Source: Thermoplasmata archaeon
GTDB taxonomy: Archaea; Thermoplasmatota; Thermoplasmata; Halarchaeoplasmatales; Halarchaeoplasmataceae
DNA length: 33,694 nucleotides
Direction: 5' to 3'
Assembly (NCBI GenBank): GCA_003551065.1
Contig: PULU01000071.1
Location: 1 to 33,694, forward strand
Within the stretch, counting starts at the first letter, position 1. Each line of letters opens with the position of its first letter. Of this stretch, positions 10,821-19,878 are shown one piece after another. A program made the position numbers and the translations under genes. The notes under the pieces are model-generated. The model was given only the letters and a program-made list of their open reading frames with translations, searched no databases and had not been told where the DNA came from.

Positions 10821-10862
10821 GCGGGTGAAGACCCGCCGGAGATGTGCCCTTTTAAGGGTGAA
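10821..10862 (+). promoter_or_regulatory. Structured leader upstream of the L15e gene
   Basis: Perfect hairpin GCGGGT-gaag-ACCCGC (10821-10836), then CCCTT-TT-AAGGG. TATA-like CTTAAAAA at about 10803-10810. Confidence 0.45.
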
Positions 10863-10889
10863 TCCATAAGCAGCGAAGAAAGTGATAAG

Positions 10890-14400: not shown

Positions 14401-14420
14401 TTTTTAAAAAGAATTATTAG

Positions 14421-14495
14421 CGGGCGTAGGGGGATTCGAACCCCCGTTCTACAGCTTAGGAGGCTGTCGCCATATCCAGACTAGGCCACACGCCC
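14421..14495 (-). tRNA. tRNA-Arg (anticodon CCT)
   Basis: Reverse complement folds GGGCGTG...ACAGC-CTCCTAA-GCTGT...GGGGG-TTCGAAT-CCCCC-TACGCCC with a G discriminator. Confidence 0.95.
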
Positions 14496-14515
14496 ATTTT
14501 GTTTGTTTAATGGGT

Positions 14516-14563
14516 TAGTCTGGAGATAAGAGGAATTTGTAATTCCTTGGCATATCCAGACTA
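14516..14563. repeat. Nested palindrome in the tRNA-Arg leader
   Basis: Outer arms TAGTCTGGA (14516-14524) / TCCAGACTA (14555-14563); inner arms AGGAATT (14531-14537) / AATTCCT (14541-14547). Confidence 0.85.
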
Positions 14564-14580
14564 TATTCAAGGGCATAGAG

Positions 14581-14627
14581 ATGGCCTTGAAGGTTCGGGG
14601 AAAATTATAATTTCCCAGTAAGGCCAC
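14581..14627. repeat. Second nested palindrome in the tRNA-Arg leader
   Basis: Outer arms ATGGCCTT (14581-14588) / AAGGCCAC (14620-14627); inner arms GGGAAA (14598-14603) / TTTCCC (14611-14616). Confidence 0.8.
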
Positions 14628-14639
14628 ACGCCCATTTTG
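14621..14639 (-). repeat. Partial duplicate of the tRNA-Arg 5' end plus immediate upstream bases
   Basis: AGGCCACACGCCCATTTTG is identical to 14483-14501; CATATCCAGACTA at 14551-14563 is identical to 14471-14483. Confidence 0.9.
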
Positions 14640-14692
14640 AGTCGAATTTTTCATATGGATGTATATTAGATAAGTCTTACGCAGGAAAAAGC

Positions 14693-17600
14693 TCATCTTT
14701 GGATTTTATAGTCTGTGTGTTCCTGAGGTATTTCTTTTCTATATTCAATATCTAAGATATCCTCTTGTTTTCTATCTTTACTCGACTTCATCAGGATTCG
14801 AAAGCCTAAGAATAGAGTCAAGATCGTTATCGAACCCAATGGAACCAATATATAGACCTCTTGGGCGTAAACATAGAATGTCACTTTTTGAGTTTCACTA
14901 TTTCCAGCCCTATCCCATGCTCTTACTTCGATCTGGTTTTTTCCATTCCTCAATCTACTTGCTTCATATTCAAGTTCCTGATCCACATCCACCCATCTTC
15001 CTTTATTTATCCTGATCTCGTATCCATCGATGCCCGATAATTGATCATAGGCTTCCCATCTGATATCAACTTTCCTTGAATGGAAAAGATCTTCTTCCTT
15101 TGGCTCCGATATCTTCAGAACCGGAGATGTGGTGTCCACTGTAAAACTAGTATTAGAAACAATATAGTCTTCGGTATTGTCACTCACCTTTAGTTGAATC
15201 GTATGAGCACCTTCTTCAAGATTTTCGAGTATATGAACTGTTTCCTGTCCTATATGTTTCCATTCCTCACCTTCTTTTCTAATGTAGTGTTCCCTTATTC
15301 CAATACCACCTTCGGATATCCACTCTATTCTCACATCTTCAGTATTCAAGTAAATACCATCTTCTGGCTCATCTATCCGAATTTCTAATTGTTCGAAAGG
15401 ACTAATTAAAGGGTATTTGTCAGTAAAACCAATACCCTCAAAAGGTGTATCTGCGAAGCCATCCGATCCTTCCTCGTCACGTTCTACTCCGGAGTATCTA
15501 TCCTCCCCATCATGATCATACCAATAATTTCCACCACCTGGGTATTCTCTGTACCAGCTATTTTCTTTGCTCGTGTCTCTACCTGGCCCTAGTTCACTTT
15601 CAAAAAAATTGTTGTGATATACGTCGTTATATTGTGATTGGAGTAATAAAGAAACACCCCTTCTACCTTTTGAAAAATCATTTCTATAAATTTCGTTATT
15701 ATGTGAATTAGCCAATAATAAACCTTGTGTGTTATTTCTAAAAGTATTACTAGAAATTATATTCCGACCAGACGATATCAGAGTAGCGCCTTCAGTATTG
15801 TCTACAAATACGTTTTCCTTGATGAGATTATCAAAGGAATTGATCATGTATAATCCCCAACTATTGTTTTTTAAAACACATCCAGTTATAATATTATGAT
15901 CGGAGAAACCCATGAGTATCCCATCAGTTAACCCGTCCAAATGTTGATCTTTGATCTCAACTCCTGTACTATTTGAAAGGATGATCTGACCCGCTTCTTT
16001 TTCTAAAATTCCCTGTGTTTTATTGTTCAAATAAATTACGGGTTTTCCATTTACTTCGTTATCGGTACTTATAATATGTGTATTCCAGTGTTTCACTTCT
16101 GGTCCGCTTAGAAATATACTTGAATCTTCAATAGAGTTTCCATCTAATCGATTGTTCATAGACCTTAATAATCCGATGGCATAGCTACTATACTTGATAT
16201 CATTATCTTCTATACTGTTATAGTTTGAACGGAATAACCTAATGTTATAGATCTCATTTCGTTCTACAAAATTAGAATTGATCTTATTGTGATGGGAATT
16301 ATATAGATAAATGCCAAACTTATTCTCTGCTAGGGTGTTATTGATGAGAACATTATCTTCAGAAAAGGCCAACTTGATACCTGCTGAGGAGTTATACAGA
16401 TTAAGATTTTCCACTAGCATGTTATTACAGTTAACGAGGATGACCTGACCTGCATCTTCTGGAATACTTCCATATTCATCGTTTTTCCAGTAGTAGATTG
16501 GTTGGCCGTTGACAGTATTTGATGAGTCTATATCGTGACTTGTCCAATGGTACAATATATCGCTGTAAAACATTAGTCCGGTTCGTTCTAATGAGTTCTT
16601 AGTAAGATCACTCCTCTGAGAATAGTGATGCACAATACCATAGTCTCCTCCTTGGATAATATTATCATGGACAATGCTATCTATCGATGAGAATAAACTT
16701 AAAAAATAGGTATTGTTTTTTCCGGTATTGTACATAATATGGTTACTTTTTGACCCATATATCTCTATAGAATAACTACACTCAGTAAAAAAGTTATCTT
16801 CTATCCTATTATTATTAGATTCGGATAACATAAGACCTATGAAAGAATCTTTGAAATTATTTTCAATGATCAGGTTATTGTTTCCCAGATCTATCGATAT
16901 ATCCATAAGATTATCAGTAAATTCGTTCTCCATCACCCCTGTCAGTCCGGATTTTATCATTAATATACCATCAGAGATGTCGAAGAATTCGTTATTAGAA
17001 ATAATCGTGTGGTTTGACTTCTCTATTATTAATCCATTTCGATTGTAAGAAAAATTGTTTTGGTGGATCTTATTGTGATCCGATTCTAAAAAGCTCATGC
17101 CTGTATGATAACCTGATATGTTATTTTCCATAAAATCATTATTTCTAGATGTCATTACTTCGATGCCTGCATCTCTTCCAACATCTACTTGGACTTTTTC
17201 GATCATCTCCCAGTTCTCAGAGCTAGCTGTAAATGTCAGTTCTATTTCTCCATGTACCTCAGGTTTCCAACTGCCTGAATAATATCCATCACCTTTTACC
17301 TGGTCCCAATCAACACCATCGTCTTCGAGATAGATCTTATCTTCTTCAGTGTCGAATTCAACTGATACGTTGATATCTGATATAGGATGAACCCCATCGG
17401 TTATGGAGACCATCAATCCGGTTTCTGATAGAACATCATGTCTAGACGAATTGCCAGGACTGTGGACCCAAAAGTATGGTTCTTCAGGTGTGATTGTCGG
17501 CTCCATGGCTTTAGAGGCATTTATCCTACCTTCAGTCAGACTGGTATCTTTCAATGAATCTAATCTATCTGCTGATGAGAGTATTATATTCTTGATTTGG

Positions 17601-19471
17601 TTATGATTATAAGAAGCGTTAGAGGATGCGATGAGTGCTGCTAATCCTGATACATGAGGGGCGGACATAGACGTTCCGGACCTGTACGTATATCTATTAT
17701 CGATATCAGTGCTATTTATGTCTTCACCAGGAGCACTAACATGAACACTGTTTTCTCCATAATTGGAAAAGCTTGTCCTACTATCATCATGTTCTGATGC
17801 GCCAACAGTTATGATATTTGTGTGTTTGAAACTAGCTGGATAAATAGGATGCCGCTCTATATTTCTGTTAGAGTTGCCTGCAGCTGTTACGAAAAGTATA
17901 CCAGCGTCTCTTTGTCTAGCTATAGCTTCTGATAGTATCTGACTTTTTCCAGTGCCTCCCCAGCTGTTAGATGTTGCTACAATGTTATCTCCCATGACCC
18001 TCCGTGTTAGAACGTAATCCAAAGAAGCTACTGCATCGGAAATTGTACCTCTACCACCCCGATCAAGGAATTTTAGACTCATCATACTGATATTCCAGTT
18101 GACGCCTACGAGACCTTTGTCGTTGTTTCCTACTGCTCCGATAGTACCGGCTACATGGGTGCCGTGACCATGATCATCCAACGGGAAATAAGAGTCGTTC
18201 ACGAAGTTGTATCCGTGATGCCCTGCCTCATTCTCCCACATATTATGTGCTAGGTCTTCATGATTATAATCGATACCTGTATCTAATACAGCTACAACGA
18301 TATCTTCATCTCCAGTAGTTATATCCCACGCTCCCGGTGTATCTATGTTTTGCATACCCCATAGTGAGGGAAATCCTGGATCATTCGGGATTTTATTCGA
18401 TCCTTGATCCTCGAATAATTCAACCAGATAATTCGGTTCTGCATGCTCGACACCGGGCAAACTAGAAAGTATCCTGATAGCAGTTTTTACGTTTATATCT
18501 CCTTCGAGTTTTAGTTCAGCAGAATCCATGTAGGAAAATATCCTTTTGGAACATATATCGATGTGATTTCTGATCTTTTCTATTCGATTGTAGATATGGT
18601 CTTTTCTCGTATCCACACAAGTTGTTTCAGGTACGGCCTGTGTATCGAATTTTACCAGAACAGTTTCTTCTTCGTATTCTATATCCTCATACTCTTCAAT
18701 CTCATTTTCTTTTATTTGGTTTTTTGATATATCGTTCGATTCTGATTCCAGAAGAAATATACCGGGACCAGCATTTCTAGATATAACATTTTCTTTGATG
18801 GTATTATCGCTAGATTCATGCAGATAGATACCGTATCGATTATCCGTTAAAACGTTGTTTTTTATCAATCCATTAGATGCATTGAATAGATAGATCCCAC
18901 TATCTCTATAATAATTTAGGCTGTTACCCTCTGCACTGTGTATGGAGGAATAACGAATTGTAAAATGCTTGGTCACGTTCCCGATATAGATACCATAACC
19001 TTTATTTTCACCATCCACCTCAAGATATTCCAAGATGAAAGGTTGCTCTTCACTCCCATCTCCTTCCCATCCTTTCGTATCTGCTAATTCATCGAATTCC
19101 CTGTTAGAATCTATGCGTATTGATTCGATCTTCCTCAGTCCATTTATATCAAATTTACTTTCTTGGGAGACCTGTTTCTGTGGACGGATCGGATCATATT
19201 CAAAACCTTCTTGATCGCTGATTTGCCTTCTCGAAAAATTTGACCTTATATCCATATCGTGCCCCTCCGGTGCAGAATGCTGATAGTTGTTGATCTCATC
19301 CATTTCAGCTCTTACACCGGGTTCATTTTCTTTTTCTGATATAGATGAAATGGATTCCCCTCCATTTTCTATATTTTCAATGCTATCATGGGTGTTGTTT
19401 ATGGAAAAAGCAAATGAACTGCTTATAATTATCGAAACCACTAAGCATAATAATATCTTTTCAGCGGGCAT
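14693..19471 (-). CDS. Secreted, C-terminally anchored subtilisin-family (S8) protease with NosD-type beta-helix segments on both sides and Ig-like C-terminal repeats
   Basis: Signal peptide KILLCLVVSIIISSSFAFS; catalytic Asp VAVLDTGID, His DDHGHGTHVAGT, Ser SGTSMSAPHVSG; many N-x-I/S-x-N-x-F-like repeats; NosD-type GGNYWYDHDGEDRYSG; C-terminal TM VYILVPLGSITILTLFLGF. Confidence 0.92.
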   Translation of the reverse strand: MPAEKILLCLVVSIIISSSFAFSINNTHDSIENIENGGESISSISEKENEPGVRAEMDEINNYQHSAPEGHDMDIRSNFSRRQISDQEGFEYDPIRPQKQVSQESKFDINGLRKIESIRIDSNREFDELADTKGWEGDGSEEQPFILEYLEVDGENKGYGIYIGNVTKHFTIRYSSIHSAEGNSLNYYRDSGIYLFNASNGLIKNNVLTDNRYGIYLHESSDNTIKENVISRNAGPGIFLLESESNDISKNQIKENEIEEYEDIEYEEETVLVKFDTQAVPETTCVDTRKDHIYNRIEKIRNHIDICSKRIFSYMDSAELKLEGDINVKTAIRILSSLPGVEHAEPNYLVELFEDQGSNKIPNDPGFPSLWGMQNIDTPGAWDITTGDEDIVVAVLDTGIDYNHEDLAHNMWENEAGHHGYNFVNDSYFPLDDHGHGTHVAGTIGAVGNNDKGLVGVNWNISMMSLKFLDRGGRGTISDAVASLDYVLTRRVMGDNIVATSNSWGGTGKSQILSEAIARQRDAGILFVTAAGNSNRNIERHPIYPASFKHTNIITVGASEHDDSRTSFSNYGENSVHVSAPGEDINSTDIDNRYTYRSGTSMSAPHVSGLAALIASSNASYNHNQIKNIILSSADRLDSLKDTSLTEGRINASKAMEPTITPEEPYFWVHSPGNSSRHDVLSETGLMVSITDGVHPISDINVSVEFDTEEDKIYLEDDGVDWDQVKGDGYYSGSWKPEVHGEIELTFTASSENWEMIEKVQVDVGRDAGIEVMTSRNNDFMENNISGYHTGMSFLESDHNKIHQNNFSYNRNGLIIEKSNHTIISNNEFFDISDGILMIKSGLTGVMENEFTDNLMDISIDLGNNNLIIENNFKDSFIGLMLSESNNNRIEDNFFTECSYSIEIYGSKSNHIMYNTGKNNTYFLSLFSSIDSIVHDNIIQGGDYGIVHHYSQRSDLTKNSLERTGLMFYSDILYHWTSHDIDSSNTVNGQPIYYWKNDEYGSIPEDAGQVILVNCNNMLVENLNLYNSSAGIKLAFSEDNVLINNTLAENKFGIYLYNSHHNKINSNFVERNEIYNIRLFRSNYNSIEDNDIKYSSYAIGLLRSMNNRLDGNSIEDSSIFLSGPEVKHWNTHIISTDNEVNGKPVIYLNNKTQGILEKEAGQIILSNSTGVEIKDQHLDGLTDGILMGFSDHNIITGCVLKNNSWGLYMINSFDNLIKENVFVDNTEGATLISSGRNIISSNTFRNNTQGLLLANSHNNEIYRNDFSKGRRGVSLLLQSQYNDVYHNNFFESELGPGRDTSKENSWYREYPGGGNYWYDHDGEDRYSGVERDEEGSDGFADTPFEGIGFTDKYPLISPFEQLEIRIDEPEDGIYLNTEDVRIEWISEGGIGIREHYIRKEGEEWKHIGQETVHILENLEEGAHTIQLKVSDNTEDYIVSNTSFTVDTTSPVLKISEPKEEDLFHSRKVDIRWEAYDQLSGIDGYEIRINKGRWVDVDQELEYEASRLRNGKNQIEVRAWDRAGNSETQKVTFYVYAQEVYILVPLGSITILTLFLGFRILMKSSKDRKQEDILDIEYRKEIPQEHTDYKIQR

Positions 19472-19643: not shown

Positions 19644-19657
19644 TTAAGATTGATGTA

Positions 19658-19749
19658 TGGGCCGAGGCGGAATCGAACCGCCGATCTTCGCCTATCCTAC
19701 CGTTTTAGCGGTTGTAAGGGCGACGTCATGACCCCTAGACCACCGGCCC
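19658..19749 (-). tRNA. tRNA-Val (anticodon TAC) with a 19-nt intron at 37/38 (intron 19694-19712)
   Basis: 5' exon of exactly 37 nt. BHB: TCGCC-[CTTA-CAA-CCG-ctaaaa-CGG-TAGG-ATA]-GGCGA with two 3-nt bulges and a 4-bp central helix. Splicing gives anticodon loop CTTACAA. T-arm GGCGG-TTCGATT-CCGCC. Confidence 0.93.
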
Positions 19750-19878
19750 ATTTGGTTTACTATTCAAGATGAATCAGATTAGTCTTAAATATTTAACTCT
19801 TTTTGACTGTCGCCTTCCAAAAGACTAATAACGATGTTATTGATTGATACTACATAAATCGAACACTGAGGTATAGAT

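Follow-up and report, generated by a model that had tools for sequence, protein, structure and literature searches.

How does an essential gene come to carry a broken copy of its own 5′ end? tRNA genes are essential and are favoured landing sites of mobile DNA. In a 33,694-nt stretch of DNA from a Thermoplasmata archaeon (contig PULU01000071.1; the whole stretch is called the window, and lies on contig C164 of a genome, G000, that is 64% complete) the gene for tRNA-Arg(CCT) is preceded by such a copy, interrupted by short hairpins. With about even confidence, we regard this leader as a decaying example of the recurrent insertion of a hairpin element into the loops of tRNA genes, coupled to partial tandem duplication. 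The process apparently recurs in several lineages of Thermoplasmata and has apparently gone undescribed; in open-licence papers, to which the literature search was confined, we found no earlier description, and a report elsewhere is possible.

All features of the locus are on the minus strand. The intact tRNA gene lies at 14420-14495, and is called both by ARAGORN and by the Rfam model RF00005 (64.5 bits). In the direction of transcription the order is a promoter-like box, flank, tRNA positions 1-13, an insert containing two hairpins (H1 and H2), the D-loop, a further hairpin A, a spacer and the intact tRNA. The copy of tRNA positions 1-13 (14621-14633) together with 6 nt of 5′ flank occupies 14621-14639, and is identical to the 19-mer at 14483-14501 (direct repeat D1). 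The copy of the D-loop (tRNA positions 13-25) at 14551-14563 is identical to the 13-mer at 14471-14483 (direct repeat D2). Both repeats are exact, as the original prediction had read them from this sequence, and so is the 57-nt separation of the two blocks (14564-14620). These 57 nt are the insert, placed exactly at the 5′ edge of the copied D-loop and matching the covariance model R1 with 88.1 bits; H1 (GGGAAA...TTTCCC) lies at 14598-14616 and H2 (TTCAAGG...CCTTGAA) at 14566-14591. Hairpin A (14516-14563) has the inverted repeats that had been described: it comprises the D-loop copy, an inner stem AGGAATT/AATTCCT and a strand complementary to that copy (I2, an inverted repeat with 92% complementarity), and is present in the minimum free energy (MFE) structure. 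Similar hairpins occur in G001, G005, G009, G013 and G015. The spacer ahead of the tRNA (14496-14515) ends in the same 6 nt (14496-14501) that precede the copy, i.e. those of D1.

This arrangement exceeds chance. The 19-mer is the sole direct repeat of at least 14 nt at a spacing of 30-200 nt in the whole window, and the 145-nt leader folds with a free energy of -45.5 kcal/mol, compared with -24.9 ± 3.45 kcal/mol for shuffled sequences (z = -5.97). An exact scan of the genome contigs with the 19-mer gave no matches. Between 14380 and 14760 the only Rfam covariance model above its gathering score was tRNA, and at low threshold nothing else was credible. A guide RNA of the H/ACA or C/D type was dropped on inspection by eye, since the hairpins look too short and no kink-turn or boxes were seen.

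The second palindrome had originally been drawn as a single hairpin B, with an outer stem around GGGAAA/TTTCCC. The inner stem is present. The outer stem GGCCTT:AAGGCC is the MFE choice for the window sequence alone and is not kept in relatives; the H2 strand is AGAGACC in several of them, making full pairing with GGCCT impossible. Comparison of 11 homologous sequences (alignments A1 and A3 for H1) supports instead two separate hairpins within the insert. In H2, 8 of 11 pairs have changed on both sides across the homologues. Taking H1 and H2 together, both sides have changed at 10 of 18 pairs in an alignment that was fitted to the R1 model; double-changed cells number 41, against 12.1 ± 2.6 for shuffles and 1-8 for slid controls. 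An independent run of MAFFT and RNAalifold gave 6 such pairs of 19. A lack of compensatory changes, named beforehand as a sign against any such structure, is clearly not what is found.

The genomes that harbour the R1 element are related haloalkaliphilic Thermoplasmata. In their family, f1, the full element precedes tRNA-Arg(CCT) in G001, G004, G009 and G010, and tRNA-Arg(TCT) in G002, G004, G009, G011, G012 and G015. Short forms from which H1-H2 is missing precede the CCT gene in G005, G013 and G015; at that gene in G012 only the 3′ part of a short form is visible, at a contig start, and many f1 genomes are without the element. Searching with the R1 covariance model (E-values from this and the second model below are rough, due to shortened calibration) adds copies ahead of the tRNA-Ser(GCT) gene of G004, and others in G011 and G004 that carry Met(CAT) sequence, giving about six loci in G004. 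A match in G211 was attributed to chance; it falls within an apparent ribosomal-protein coding region, far from any tRNA. The tRNA pieces that flank the element match the cognate tRNA. The CCT and TCT inserts of G009 have H1 parts that differ by a single base, and their tRNA arms show the differences between the two tRNAs. The model also picked out an array at the end of a contig in G008, which starts with the sequence of a tRNA-Ser 5′ end. That the same element adjoins cognate copies of Arg-CCT, Arg-TCT, Ser-GCT and Met-CAT counts for insertion.

Related units occur at other tRNAs, which the original prediction had overlooked. A survey of the tRNA genes of G004 revealed units before the Asn, Thr, Val, Gln, Arg(TCG), Leu and Ala tRNAs. 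Such units, often 60-75 nt long, join 10-16 nt from the start of the cognate tRNA to an inner hairpin and the flank, and often include a complement of the tRNA piece as well. In the genome of the window itself, tRNA-Ala(TGC) (contig C106) has a 5′ copy hairpin 71 nt upstream. We also note that the inner hairpins of L298, L310 (G016) and L120 (G004) are bounded by GAG...CGA or TGA, which may form tandem G-A pairs where the outer stem meets the inner one. At a contig start in G011 (C89, locus L098) a tandem repeat of ~66 nt lies downstream of tRNA-Met, with no obvious tRNA piece.

A different insert is found in family f4 (G018, G031, G041, G049 and G057). Here the copy often reaches the anticodon, and the two-hairpin insert lies in the D-loop at positions 13|14 or 24|25, or in the T-loop. 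Its covariance model, R2, has 9 of 13 pairs changed on both sides, and the element has a conserved loop TATCCTCA with covarying stems. Each f4 genome contains 13-20 matches to R2, while elsewhere among 300 genomes of the class matches are few and weak. Of 20 regions chosen from the f4 matches by the model alone, 18 contain a tRNA. This second element, too, lies at many types of tRNA and nearly always adjoins them, again counting for insertion. A further two-hairpin insert occurs in D-loop copies in f16 (two loci, read by eye), a single 62-nt unit stands ahead of initiator tRNA-Met in G027, and downstream of the tRNA-Leu gene at L359 a 70-nt unit is repeated in tandem, every copy starting anew on the 3′ side of the T-loop. 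Arrays whose tandem units are exact count for insertion as well.

These two elements bear upon an explanation requiring no mobile element, whereby a nascent strand snaps back at tRNA stem-loops and template switching leaves a 5′ copy, its reverse complement and a repeated flank. The variable repeat lengths and nested palindromes fit such scars, and the tRNA 5′ piece has a longer complement than shuffled sequences give, both in f1 (5.3 versus 3.9 nt) and in mixed control families (5.9 versus 4.4 nt). Against this, the same multi-pair element stands at different tRNAs, f4 units have no such complement (4.6 versus 4.8 nt in shuffles), and the f4 element has its conserved loop TATCCTCA and covarying stems. 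We consider template switching unlikely. Insertion at a tRNA loop could also suggest an archaeal intron in the D-loop of a duplicated tRNA, since such introns are considered to move from one tRNA gene to another (PMC4090602). Yet in 14 elements the bulge-helix-bulge motif was not above shuffled expectation, and the hosts are broken copies adjoining an intact tRNA, leaving this explanation barely credible.

The leader and the tRNA are probably transcribed together. A putative promoter-like box CGTAAGACTTATCTAA at 14666-14681, shared with G001, precedes the copy by 30-32 nt. In sister genomes the spacing from the box to whichever 5′ end occurs first, that of the copy or of the tRNA, is similar. 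Where there is a leader, 28-45 nt separate the box from the copy; where there is none, 31-53 nt separate it from the tRNA. This comparable spacing suggests a single transcript. The earlier guess of co-transcription is thus supported by comparison, and no separate promoter for the tRNA is evident in the sequence.

Genome comparison indicates that the presence of the leader turns over fast at orthologous loci. At the Arg(TCT) loci placed on the tree, which lie downstream of a gene that we take from its sequence to be gyrA, presence requires five changes and is not clustered. Comparison of G013 with G002 and G007 reveals a near-empty site for the short form. Relatives without the copy, which the original prediction had named among the observations that would refute it, do exist, and this fits turnover. 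That prediction had offered either a structured leader or non-coding RNA, or a scar of template switching or insertion. The data favour a mixture of these, with an inserted 57-nt element and, in congeners, a near-empty site for the short form.

The covarying stems and the probable co-transcription would both be expected if the hairpins acted in the transcript, as a structured leader or trailer affecting processing, stability or feedback, the stems being kept by selection. In the feedback form of this explanation the 5′ copy would compete with the real 5′ strand for the 3′ half of the tRNA; in many predicted folds the acceptor strand of the copy pairs with the 3′ strand of the tRNA, and the inserts are mostly in tRNA orientation. 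A function for the leader is harder to reconcile with its patchy presence at the same locus between congeners, with the variation between species in which tRNA type bears units, with mirror-image copies downstream, and with hairpin sequences that are unrelated between families. Moreover, the acceptor arm of the copy in G001 has decayed (GAACTTG). On balance we think leader function rather improbable as the primary explanation.

The mirror-image copies, like the position of the break points, had escaped the original prediction. Copies of the tRNA 5′ end occur upstream of 25 of 57 genes in f4, 12/46 in f1, 4/10 in G036 and 2/6 in G016; copies of the 3′ end occur downstream of 12/44, 9/45, 7/10 and 2/5 respectively. 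Controls with the sides swapped (i.e. end copies sought on the opposite side) gave 0 or 1. Some loci in the pooled f1 and f4 counts were fetched for the element they carry, so these counts overstate prevalence, and the samples outside these two families are small. G027 has 5′ copies upstream of 1/25 genes and 3′ copies downstream of 0/26, and in the same test no tRNA-end copies were found in G037, G050 or the f6 genomes. Searches for tRNA genes across whole genomes gave 10/27 in G004 (including three loci fetched earlier), 10/26 in G049 and 2/19 in G000. The break points fall at the edges of the D-loop (tRNA positions 11-13 or 19-24) and in the T-loop (T54+3 to +6).

A complete tRNA with a displaced end fragment is also the layout left by integrated elements (PMC9897764), and the loci might be what remains of ordinary viruses or plasmids after integration at tRNA genes and deletion of all but 50-200 bp. 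The known archaeal examples are ~9-23 kb (PMC9897764), whereas the insert here is of tens of bp, is structured and repeated in tandem, and occurs on either side of the gene at many tRNAs. We judge such an origin very unlikely. Topology alone does not distinguish site-specific integration from a tandem duplication having one intragenic breakpoint, as either would leave 5′ copies on the upstream side and 3′ copies on the downstream side. What points to insertion is that an element recurs at the junction or within the loop that was copied.

We return to hairpin insertion, which we infer to be the direction of change. Besides the cognate matching, it is favoured by the covariation in both elements, the break points at loop edges, the side specificity of the copies, the near-empty site and the recurrent gain and loss at the TCT locus. 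A two-hairpin element of about 50-60 bp would enter a tRNA gene in the region of its D-loop or T-loop, and a partial tandem duplication, coupled or subsequent, would spare one intact tRNA. The element-bearing remnant would then be a 5′ tRNA part with flank upstream, or a 3′ part with trailer downstream. Units would multiply in tandem and then decay. Those upstream would be transcribed with the tRNA and probably removed with the 5′ leader by RNase P. The stems would persist since a folded strand is required, either for mobility or in the RNA, and recognition of that strand (single-stranded DNA or RNA) by some enzyme may be the reason for their retention. The strand bias of the inserts (23:2, mostly in tRNA orientation) together with the conserved loop in f4 suggests that one folded strand is recognised.

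Several observations weigh against insertion. The same orientation bias is among them. No transposase or integrase was identified, integrase families not having been searched genome-wide, and the number of Y1 transposase genes does not track element load. Within f1 no copies of the element were found away from tRNAs, unlike most mobile hairpins. Several f4 copies have the element away from the duplication junction, so that two events are needed. Lastly, the compensatory changes within one orthologous locus of genus g5 fit an RNA function too. More tentatively, and as less likely than not, we suggest that tiny paired hairpins may be a new class of prokaryotic mobile element that recognises folded tRNA-gene DNA or pre-tRNA, integrates at the edges of the D- and T-loops, and restores the tRNA by duplicating its outer end and flank. 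If so, each insertion would be survivable and tandem arrays would grow outward from the gene.

Roughly 40% of the tRNA genes sampled in G004 and G049 have partial copies with hairpin inserts at their side; acting in several archaeal lineages, such a process would be an unrecognised route of genome change. It may also account for spurious tRNA fragments and contig breaks in assemblies. Most of the genomes are draft metagenome-assembled genomes with several arrays at contig ends, and the leader of the window is reproduced in other assemblies. Many contigs of G004 and G049 break at or near tRNA arrays (e.g. G004 C93, C119 and C17; G049 C121, C152 and C184), and the arrays probably disturb short-read assembly. 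Two questions are now testable: which enzyme acts on tRNA loops, and how an extra tRNA 5′ half in the primary transcript affects processing.

Elsewhere in the window, a 1592-aa open reading frame (14693-19471, minus strand) with a subtilase domain and NosD/beta-helix repeats starts directly upstream of the leader region; it is apparently a large secreted protein. At 19657-19750 (minus strand), adjoining tRNA-Met, a tRNA was called with an odd four-base anticodon (taca), and is probably an intron-containing tRNA-Val. An eL15-Euryarchaeota ribosomal leader at 10822-10869 (plus strand) scores 33.8 bits against a gathering score of 33.7, and overlaps the start of the eL15 gene at 10842.

Several known systems resemble these loci in part. 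As in CRISPR-like arrays, tandem units alternate a repeat (here flank and tRNA end) with a variable insert, but the inserts are hairpins and the repeat length varies. Archaeal tRNA introns (PMC4090602) likewise insert at the loops of several tRNA genes; here there is no bulge-helix-bulge, and the insert is in a broken copy rather than a functional gene. Archaeal integrative elements leave partial tRNA genes (PMC9897764), and a complete tRNA with a displaced fragment on the matching side (attL/attR) is found here too. They are of kilobase size with an integrase, whereas the present inserts are of tens to about 200 bp without genes, at many tRNAs per genome and in tandem units. Repetitive extragenic palindromic (REP) sequences and REPINs, which are associated with RAYT (Y1) transposases, are miniature paired palindromes and non-autonomous (PMC3116915), as are the elements here. 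These are, by contrast, restricted to tRNAs, and Y1 gene number is unrelated to their load; PF01797 is absent in G018, G041, G049 and G057, each with 13-20 R2 matches, an absence that is not absolute in draft genomes. Mitochondrial double-hairpin and repetitive hairpin-forming elements (DHE and RHE) are short paired hairpins, potentially mobile, that lie between genes and inside RNA genes (PMC2800124). The likeness lies in short paired hairpins, family-specific sequences and repeats. As in those elements, two adjacent stem-loops are kept by base-pair changes (10/18 in R1, 9/13 in R2), and there are many copies per genome (about six loci in G004, 13-20 matches in f4). As regards mobility, the present loci show turnover of presence and a near-empty site, no event having been observed. 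The elements described here differ in being prokaryotic, and in being almost confined to partial tRNA copies around an intact tRNA, with those of the 5′ end on its upstream side and those of the 3′ end on its downstream side.
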